Shown piece by piece: positions 14,725-16,881 of a stretch of DNA of 32,213 bases. Made by a program: the position numbers and the translations under genes. The DNA lies in contig JAHQWA010000474.1 in NCBI GenBank assembly GCA_019634045.1, forward strand, positions 1 to 32,213. The letters are read 5' to 3'. The notes beneath the pieces are model-generated. The model was given only the letters and a program-made list of their open reading frames with translations, was not told the origin of the DNA and did not search any database. The stretch comes from Saprospiraceae bacterium (GTDB lineage: Bacteria; Bacteroidota; Bacteroidia; Chitinophagales; Saprospiraceae). Every line of letters begins with the position of its first letter. Positions within the stretch are counted from its first letter, which is position 1.

Positions 14725-15840
14725 CTAGTTACTTAGCATTACGGGCATCACTAGCATCAAGATTTCTTCTCCGTCCGGCTCTTCGGTAGGCAGCAAAATA
14801 CCAGCTCGCGTTGGATTAGACAACTCAATTTTCACCTCATCTGCTTCAAGCACACCCAACATCTCAATTAAGAACTTAGCATTGAATCCGATATTTAGTG
14901 GGTCTCCCTCAAAAGTGCAAGCGAGTTGTTCTGTAGCCTCATTGGAAAAGTCCAAATCTTGTGCAGAGATGGTCAAGCTACCATCCATGATATTCAAAAT
15001 CACCTGATTGGTAGTCTTGTTCGCATAGATCGCAATACGCTTTAGCGAGTTTTGGAAATCAGTCCGCTGTAGCGTTAAAGTGTTTGGGTTATCTACGGGT
15101 ATTACCGCATTATAATCCGGGTACCTGGCGTCGATCAAACGGCAAACAAGGTTGGTAGTACCAAAAGTAAAAAAGGCGTTGGCTTTATTGAAGGCAATAT
15201 TCACTTCGTCAGCAGCAGGTAGTGCAGAGCGGAGCAACGTTAGCGCCTTCTTTGGTACGATAAAAGACGTAGATACTTCGCTGGTTACTTCGGCAAAAGT
15301 GTATTTAACTAGTTTGTGTGCATCGGTGGCAACTAGGGTCAGCTTATTGAAGTCAATCTGGAAATAAACACCGGTCATCGCCGGTCTAAGCTCATCATTC
15401 GAAGTGGCAAATAATGTCTTCGTGATGCCTTGAGTCAAGGCTGGAGCTTGAATCTTGATCGTATCAACGGTATCTGGCTCTGGTATTTTGGGGAAATCCT
15501 TGCCGTCCTCACCGGCTAAACGGTACTTACCATAGGCAGAGGTGATCTCGATACCAAAGTTTTCATCATTGATAGTGAACGTGATAGGCTGTTGAGGCAA
15601 TGCCTTCAGCGTCTCCAAGAGGATCTTGGCAGGCACGGCAACCGATCCATCCGCATCTGACATCACTTCGATTTCTGTAGAAATTGAGGTTTCTAGGTCG
15701 GTCGCAGCAATACTTAATTTGTTATTGCTGATAGAAAACAGAAAATCTTCCAAAATAGGTAAAACGGGATTGGAGGCAATAGCTCCTCCAACAATCTGTA
15801 ATTGTTTAAGCAATTCGGAAGAAGAAACGCTGAATTTCAT
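14725..15840 (-). CDS. dnaN: DNA polymerase III beta subunit (sliding clamp)
   Basis: DnaN forms the ring that tethers polymerase III to DNA. The 371 residues have the typical length and three similar domains. The start is MKFSVSSSELLKQLQIVGG. DLETSISTEIEV, RLAGEDGKDFPKIPE and TLVATDAHKLVKY are hallmark segments, and it ends MPVMLSN, close to the usual C-terminal MPM-type end. A promoter with both boxes lies at 15913-15944 and a perfect DnaA box at 15962-15970. dnaA is not in the window; the gene stands apart from the classic dnaA-dnaN pair. Confidence 0.97.
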   Translation of the reverse strand: MKFSVSSSELLKQLQIVGGAIASNPVLPILEDFLFSISNNKLSIAATDLETSISTEIEVMSDADGSVAVPAKILLETLKALPQQPITFTINDENFGIEITSAYGKYRLAGEDGKDFPKIPEPDTVDTIKIQAPALTQGITKTLFATSNDELRPAMTGVYFQIDFNKLTLVATDAHKLVKYTFAEVTSEVSTSFIVPKKALTLLRSALPAADEVNIAFNKANAFFTFGTTNLVCRLIDARYPDYNAVIPVDNPNTLTLQRTDFQNSLKRIAIYANKTTNQVILNIMDGSLTISAQDLDFSNEATEQLACTFEGDPLNIGFNAKFLIEMLGVLEADEVKIELSNPTRAGILLPTEEPDGEEILMLVMPVMLSN

Positions 15841-15912
15841 ATTCGTGCCTGATTTTCGTGAATGTTATAAGCAAAATACCAAATAAAGGCCTATCGATCA
15901 ATCTGTAAGCTG

Positions 15913-15944
15913 CAAAACTACATTTTCTTGCGTACTTTTTTCAA
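15913..15944 (-). promoter_or_regulatory. dnaN promoter, Bacteroidota type
   Basis: On the minus strand TTG (15942-15944), 21 bases, then TAGTTTTG (15913-15920) match the -33 TTG / -7 TAnnTTTG consensus with permitted spacing. Transcription would start near 15906 and give a leader of about 65 bases. Confidence 0.6.
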
Positions 15945-15961
15945 GCAAATAATTAACATCA

Positions 15962-15970
15962 TGTGGATAA
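15962..15970 (-). promoter_or_regulatory. Perfect DnaA box upstream of dnaN
   Basis: TTATCCACA reads on the minus strand, an exact match to the DnaA R1-type box. It lies 18 bases upstream of the dnaN -33 element and two bases past the ROK-kinase stop codon. I found no second perfect box nearby. It may let DnaA control dnaN. Confidence 0.5.
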
Positions 15971-15972
15971 TG

Positions 15973-16881
15973 TTAAGTAACCAATAATGCCGCCCCAAAA
16001 ACCCCGGCACTATCTCCTAATTTAGGCTTGAGAAAAGGCGTTTCTACCGTCTTGTTGAAGATGAATTGTTCAATCCGCTTGACTCCCTCCGTATACAAGA
16101 GATCAATGTTTCCAACTCCTCCTCCTAGCACTATGGCATCGGGGTCAAGAACGTTAATTATATTGGAGATACCCTTGGCGAAGAAATGCAATAGTCGCTC
16201 CATGGTTTCCGAAGCATGAGAGTCATTTTGTGCCTTATGACGTTGCGTAATTTCCTTCAATGATAAATGTTGTCCACTTATCTTTTCATAATACTTTTCG
16301 AGTGCCGGACCTGCTATAACCATTTCCGTGCATCCGATATCTCCGCAGTAGCAGGCTCCCCCCGATTCATCAAGAAAGGTATGTCCCCATTCACCGCCAA
16401 TACCCTGCCCTCCATTCCAGACTTGTCCATTGATCACAATCCCACCTCCTACTCCGGTACCTAAGATCACACCGAAGACTAGTTGGGCATCCGGAACATG
16501 ATCTCGTACTGCTCCTAAATTTGCTTCTGCAATGGCAAAGCAATTGGCGTCATTAGCCATCTGGACAGGAATGCCTAATTTTCGCTCAATATCCTTCTTG
16601 AAAGGTCGGTTATTTAAGCAAGTGGTATTGCTATTCTTCATTAGTCCTGTTCGCGGGCTGATCGTACCGGGTGTGCCAATGCCAATGCGCTCTGGCCTAA
16701 GGCCGGAAGCTTCTGATAATCTATTGATCACCAATTGAACCTGATTAATAATGTGATCGTACCCTTTTTCTCTCTCAGTGGGTTCGCGGAGTCGATGTAG
16801 AACTTCTATGCTTTGGCTGTCTTTCAGAATGGCGCCTTCAATTTTAGTACCACCTAGGTCTATCCCCCAAACTGGCTGCAT
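15973..16881 (-). CDS. ROK-family sugar kinase
   Basis: ROK kinases phosphorylate glucose, fructose, GlcNAc or ManNAc with ATP. The 302 residues start with the phosphate-binding loop GIDLGGTK. The catalytic Asp111 is in MANDANCFA, and GVGGGIVINGQ forms the second nucleotide loop. The zinc-binding signature is complete: Glu164/His167 in GGEWGHTF, then Cys177, Cys179 and Cys184 in CYCGDIGCTE. A fused HTH is absent, so it is an enzyme rather than a NagC/XylR-type repressor. Substrate is uncertain; GlcNAc is possible given the GH20 enzyme in the window, but the two genes are not linked. Confidence 0.92.
   Translation of the reverse strand: MQPVWGIDLGGTKIEGAILKDSQSIEVLHRLREPTEREKGYDHIINQVQLVINRLSEASGLRPERIGIGTPGTISPRTGLMKNSNTTCLNNRPFKKDIERKLGIPVQMANDANCFAIAEANLGAVRDHVPDAQLVFGVILGTGVGGGIVINGQVWNGGQGIGGEWGHTFLDESGGACYCGDIGCTEMVIAGPALEKYYEKISGQHLSLKEITQRHKAQNDSHASETMERLLHFFAKGISNIINVLDPDAIVLGGGVGNIDLLYTEGVKRIEQFIFNKTVETPFLKPKLGDSAGVFGAALLVT

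Follow-up and report, generated by a model that had tools for sequence, protein, structure and literature searches.

Facing DnaA boxes at a fixed distance from the dnaN promoter: a candidate DnaA-controlled element in part of the Saprospiraceae

How replication parts and dNTPs are matched to the initiation of replication is an old question, and most of what is known of DnaA as a transcription factor comes from E. coli, B. subtilis, and Caulobacter. In the available part of an E. coli study, DnaA binds almost all of its targets, including nrdA and nrdD, through two boxes 2-3 bp apart, and one peak lies inside dnaN without a double box (PMC11317965). The available text of a second source gives dnaA-dnaN and ywlC as direct DnaA targets in B. 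subtilis. For Caulobacter, it describes predicted DnaA boxes before replication genes, including dnaB, together with a proposed control of the reductase (PMC8203912). DnaA control of dnaN and of reductase genes is, then, already known elsewhere. A search of the openly accessible literature, judged on the titles and abstract openings listed and with subscription papers and preprints outside its scope, showed no report of a DnaA regulon or box-promoter module in Bacteroidota like the one described here. This module, rigid and recognizable by sequence, would predict DnaA-controlled promoters in Bacteroidota and make the question testable in that phylum.

The window analyzed is a stretch of 32,213 nucleotides from a Saprospiraceae bacterium. 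On its minus strand lies dnaN, the gene for the DNA polymerase III beta clamp and the proposed controlled gene (14725..15840; PF00712, PF02767, PF02768). An intergenic regulatory region of 132 bp (15841..15972), the gap between ORFs, separates dnaN from a co-oriented ROK-family kinase gene (15973..16881, minus strand; PF00480, E 1.7e-73), which is upstream context and presumably lies outside the element. An earlier note on this DNA had reported one exact DnaA box in the gap, and this was confirmed. The sequence TTATCCACA occurs at 15962-15970 on the minus strand, two bases past the ROK stop codon, and is the single exact match in the whole window.

Alone, this match proves little, because the exact 9-mer shows no genome-wide enrichment (112 copies in the 10.16-Mb genome vs 111 for the reversed control) and the 1-mismatch matches in the window are as frequent as expected (9 observed vs 8.57). 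The 0.25 chance matches previously calculated for the window are correct for uniform bases, but the genome's own density gives about 0.36 per 32 kb. Such figures are what a chance 9-mer match would produce. Against chance stand the retention of the site in 4/4 genomes of the genus, found in the comparison of dnaN upstream regions that the earlier note had proposed, and its phasing to the promoter through much of the family; with these in hand, a chance match has practically no probability left.

The exact box is one half of a pair. A second, weak box, absent from the earlier note, opposes it at 15950..15958 on the plus strand; it reads TAATTAACA on that strand and TGTTAATTA on the minus strand, and 3 of its 9 positions are unlike TTATCCACA. 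The spacer between boxes 1 and 2 is 3 bp long (15959-15961, TGA). Read on the coding strand, the element is TTATCCACA-TGA-TGTTAATTA, a near-palindrome of two head-to-head DnaA boxes in which box 1 is the strong half. The family motif of the pair is TTWTCMACANNNTGTKRRT, with box 1 as its first half and box 2 as its second, and the TGT is conserved at 98-100% in 41 aligned sites. Across the family, the strong-box consensus is TTWTCMACA. The window's second half-site departs from the consensus at 3/9 positions.

This arrangement can be compared with the E. coli double boxes at nrdA, nrdD, polA, purH, DARS, and datA. As the available part of that study presents them, they too consist of two 9-mers with 2-3 bp between them, in many cases a strong one with a weak one, before replication and nucleotide genes; they are direct repeats, whereas the Saprospiraceae boxes face each other (PMC11317965). 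The head-to-head arrangement with 3-bp spacing, which lies within the E. coli range of distances but not in its same-orientation form, accounted for 33 of 45 boxes in the dnaN upstream regions, a count that permits 2 mismatches in the second box; the window's own pair has more and falls outside it. Every other arrangement reached at most 5, and no direct-repeat spacing rose above 5/45. In the available portions of the literature compared, head-to-head boxes at a fixed distance are undescribed for DnaA-controlled promoters.

To describe conservation before dnaN, an expectation-maximization motif search was run over 112 dnaN upstream regions, seeded with a pattern spotted by eye in relatives; it estimated the share of regions with a site at 0.43. 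These regions came from 118 genomes with a dnaN match (116 plus G002 and G003), after leaving out G103, which had no upstream sequence, and five very distant genomes (G010, G071, G079, G086, and G119). The upstream regions L002, L028, and L107 were shorter than 300 bp, an N-terminal fragment was used for G067, and the better of two dnaN copies was used for G101. The two G101 copies are adjacent (G101:C108:11867-14198) and are 75% and 58% identical to the window's dnaN.

The motif TTWTCMACANNNTGTKRRT was found in the 112 Saprospiraceae regions 27 times exactly, 38 times with at most 1 mismatch, and 43 times with at most 2 mismatches. The corresponding averages for 50 shuffled sets were 0, 0.02, and 0.64, and the reversed sequences gave one match at 2 mismatches. 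These pair counts overstate the independent evidence, because the pattern was shaped on the same regions and the genomes share descent, which the shuffles leave in place. The dnaN counts are partly circular; the evidence from the window's own genome, the palindrome, the phasing at reductase genes, and the wide scan is less so.

Conservation falls off with distance from the window's genome. The phased pair was present in 31/39 genomes whose dnaN is at least 75% identical, in 9/34 at 65-74%, and in 1/39 below 65%. The full module (pair plus -7 box) was found in 20/62 family genomes, and in 5/186 other genomes of the order, with 0 in the controls. Its 25 loci comprised 12 at dnaN, 5 at nrdB, and 8 at neither, and among the five module genomes outside the family but in the same order, one locus lay by nrdB or dnaN. 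A sample of the phylum, 395 genomes with 6 from the family and 13 others from the order, gave the window's own genome as its only match. Conservation is restricted in the identity, order, and phylum counts alike, and the element thus belongs mainly to a section of one family. Named contigs that carry the pair include those of uncultured Lewinella sp. (L251, L247), of a Saprospiraceae MAG (L297), and of Flavilitoribacter nigricans DSM 23189 (L239), in which the module precedes dnaN.

One genome, G002, was considered as a counter-example, having a dnaN contig without the pair, and was then rejected as such: a ROK gene, the pair, and a -7 box end its contig C401. G002 therefore keeps the element, apparently with an insertion between promoter and dnaN. 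The apparent insertion is about 100 bp or more; the ends of C401 (L394) and C47 (L002) share 33 bp, and the break may be an assembly fault.

The earlier note had also described a promoter with both Bacteroidota boxes close to the DnaA box. The -7 box is there and its position is conserved, but the -33 box is doubtful. TAGTTTTG lies at 15913..15920 on the minus strand, starts 50 bp after the start of the pair, and fits TAnnTTTG, the Bacteroidota -7 motif. In 41 of the 43 dnaN sites, the distance from the first base of the pair to TAnnTTTG is 49-51 bp, and in 32 it is exactly 50 bp; the -7 box played no part in the search pattern for the pair. A possible -33 element, a weak TTG read from the sequence, is at 15942..15944 on the minus strand, 21 bp from the -7 box. 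In 41 aligned dnaN promoters, TTTG occurred at a spacer of 18-22 bp in 3 and TTG in 8. The -33 box is likewise missing from promoters that do not carry the pair.

The phasing bears on another suggestion of the earlier note, that the box might titrate DnaA. At datA and DARS2 of E. coli, paired boxes are indeed strong DnaA binders according to the available part of the study cited above (PMC11317965), which fits a titrating or reactivating site of the datA or DARS type that stands before dnaN by happenstance. Titration is disfavored because it offers no reason for a fixed 49-51 bp spacing to the -7 box, and the recurrence of the pair at dnaN and at reductase genes also speaks against a titrating or reactivating role, which we consider very improbable.

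The pair also occurs outside the dnaN regions. In the window's own 10.2-Mb genome, the pair occurs at two places only, the dnaN promoter and upstream of nrdB (contig C108), with a control count of 0. A strict palindrome was found in 53/120 family genomes, again with 0 in the control. Thirty palindrome loci were fetched: 22 of them lay upstream of nrdB, 3 preceded a gene for a class II reductase, and 5 were elsewhere. At 19 of the 25 reductase-gene sites, a -7-like element (at most 1 mismatch) was located 49-51 bp from the pair. Over offsets 21-109, there were 40 such elements in all at these sites, and the other 21 were scattered, with five at offset 61. The reductase-gene sites have a degenerate -7 element. 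The nrdB upstream regions also hold boxes in other spacings and orientations, such as single boxes and a pair with a 1-bp spacer. A DUF1883 and TIR-domain gene is preceded by the pair in two genomes, including Neolewinella maritima (L146:1618-2403, L318; profile check on the L146 protein). The dnaA gene has no such pair upstream, and there is therefore no sign of autoregulation through the pair.

NrdR coordinates the expression of reductase genes through upstream sites, and NrdR boxes differ in sequence from the pair. The two systems are alike in having sites upstream of reductase genes. They differ in that a search for NrdR (TIGR00244), which genomes with NrdR boxes should encode, found it in 0/61 family genomes, with 9/14 controls positive. 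A Bacteroides control genome had no NrdR match either, so the absence is not special to Saprospiraceae. The module suggests what may control ribonucleotide reductase where NrdR is missing.

A further proposal of the earlier note was to use GC skew to see whether the replication origin is near, and the outcome was negative. In G064, a complete relative, the sign of the GC skew switches at about 2.35 Mb; the skew minimum and the richest box cluster are at about 2.348 Mb. This cluster, the richest within 380 kb scanned, lies partly in ctaA and partly next to it, with its start at 2,347,678, and a second begins at 2,349,010. The dnaN gene of G064 is at 1.84 Mb, 0.51 Mb from the skew minimum, and its nrdB pair is at 0.30 Mb, where nrdB was confirmed. 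The genome of the window has its origin-marking ctaA locus on contig C381 and its dnaA on C441, while the window is C432. An oriC would show a box cluster at the GC-skew minimum; the window has one pair and one exact box. A cluster of four exact boxes on C108 was also considered as oriC. It was rejected, given that such clusters track nrdB or other reductase genes even without a corA neighbor and that the G064 nrdB pair is 2.05 Mb away from the skew minimum.

DnaA-type 9-mers are concentrated at the ctaA side of the origin, where the 800 bp before ctaA in 30 genomes together contain 81 TTWTCMACA boxes vs 6.7 expected from the control density. They show no strongly favored spacing in these 30 genomes (head-to-head 3 bp: 8). 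In many of the 30 genomes, DnaA-type 9-mers also stand at near-constant spots inside ctaA (L358-L387, oriented positions about 2036-2620), an indication that the ctaA coding sequence may contain part of the origin. Box variants at the origin and at dnaN did not match genome by genome; in G100 and G022, dnaN carries TTATCAACA while the origin side has only TTTTCCACA. Variant matching was accordingly dropped as support for DnaA.

The element has the features of a DnaA-box transcriptional element: its 9-mer matches the DnaA box, its 9-mers occur at the origin, and its position in the promoter is conserved. The box-binding domain of the DnaA encoded in this genome is intact, and its GGRDHSTV aligns with GGRDHTTV in PDB 8btg. 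We consider it likely, from these comparisons of sequence, that DnaA controls dnaN (and nrdB) through the pair, in one direction or the other. The earlier note's idea that DnaA controls the clamp gene in spite of a distant dnaA is thus strongly supported by the retention in the genus and the phasing in the family, but it is incomplete, since it considered one box and the element consists of two. Several observations count against DnaA control, namely the inverted geometry, the lack of variant tracking with the origin, the limited conservation, the degenerate -7 element at reductase genes, and the 3/9 departures in the second half-site.

We infer that two DnaA molecules would bind the head-to-head pair symmetrically, one at the strong TTWTCMACA box and one at the weaker box across the 3-bp spacer. 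Counted from the predicted start, the pair spans about -62 to -42 and has its center near -52, which would put both molecules next to RNA polymerase on its upstream side. The promoter has a poor -33 box but a good -7 box, and from this fixed position DnaA would most likely recruit or stabilize the polymerase and so turn dnaN on. With nrdB or another reductase gene under the same module, one protein could tie the clamp and the dNTP supply to initiation. Facing boxes at a fixed distance would also provide a different geometry for studying the contact between DnaA and RNA polymerase.

As to the sign of the DnaA effect, we lean slightly toward activation. DnaA might instead bind and repress dnaN, or act both ways by nucleotide state, with less clamp at high DnaA-ATP; this overlaps with the explanation just given, the sign being the sole difference. 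There is precedent for it, as the available part of the second source has DnaA repressing dnaA and either activating or repressing nrdAB in E. coli (PMC8203912). The whole of the pair, however, lies at a fixed distance ahead of the -7 and -33 positions, where activators usually bind, and a repressor would need no 49-51 bp phase. We regard repression or dual action as a minority possibility and rather improbable.

The module was then sought beyond the family by scanning genome_contigs (84,980 species) without taxon restriction. Among the matches listed, 117 loci comprised 62 at dnaN, 7 at nrdB, 42 at other genes, and 6 with too short a downstream sequence to be classified. One of the 7 listed nrdB loci is weak (L299, 22% identical). 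The 42 other loci received their nearest-gene labels from visual inspection of translations; L258, L253, L262, L281, L285, and L295 were confirmed by profile search, and L275, L328, L301, L310, and L327 by similarity to these. Among the matches listed, the Firmicutes loci are at dnaA (L262, L310, L327), rnpA (L285), and a threonylcarbamoyl-AMP synthase gene (L281), which we take to be of the ywlC type. The -7 match at the Firmicutes loci is probably incidental. Their facing boxes 3 bp apart are an independent pointer to the use of this arrangement by DnaA.

These loci recall the B. subtilis regulon, in that some Firmicutes have the same head-to-head pair before dnaA and the ywlC-type gene. The Saprospiraceae case differs from that regulon, as far as its available description goes: dnaN stands alone, far from dnaA and the origin, with its own phased pair.

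The Firmicutes loci also help to judge whether the near-palindrome is read by an uncharacterized dimeric transcription factor other than DnaA, which would co-regulate dnaN and the reductase genes, its DnaA-box likeness being coincidental or ancestral. An inverted repeat with a fixed 3-bp spacer suits a symmetric dimer, and box variants do not follow origin variants. Yet both halves match 9-mers clustered at the origin, the varied box spacings and orientations at nrdB fit 9-mer units, and the same pair stands before dnaA and the ywlC-type gene in Firmicutes. Taken together, these points make a factor other than DnaA unlikely.

Within Bacteroidota, the matches listed include three Bacteroidales MAGs with the module before a dnaB helicase gene (L258, L275, L328) and two Labilibaculum MAGs with it before a gyrB/parE-like topoisomerase gene (L253, L301). 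At L253 and L301, the -7 match ends 17 bp ahead of the start of the gyrB/parE-like gene. It is conceivable, to a degree somewhat short of probable, that in Saprospiraceae, where no NrdR was found, DnaA would be a dedicated activator of a minimal clamp and reductase regulon through a symmetric dimer at -52, and that related Bacteroidota would use the module for dnaB and topoisomerase genes. For Caulobacter, whose predicted DnaA boxes also precede dnaB, the available part of the source mentions neither a fixed inverted pair nor promoter phasing (PMC8203912). Many of the remaining listed matches are probably due to chance or unexplained; several, including sites within long open frames (L292, L316), have the look of chance matches. 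PhoH-like genes were seen downstream of the module in Chitinophagaceae-type genomes (L295, L325, L330), of which L295 was checked by profile.
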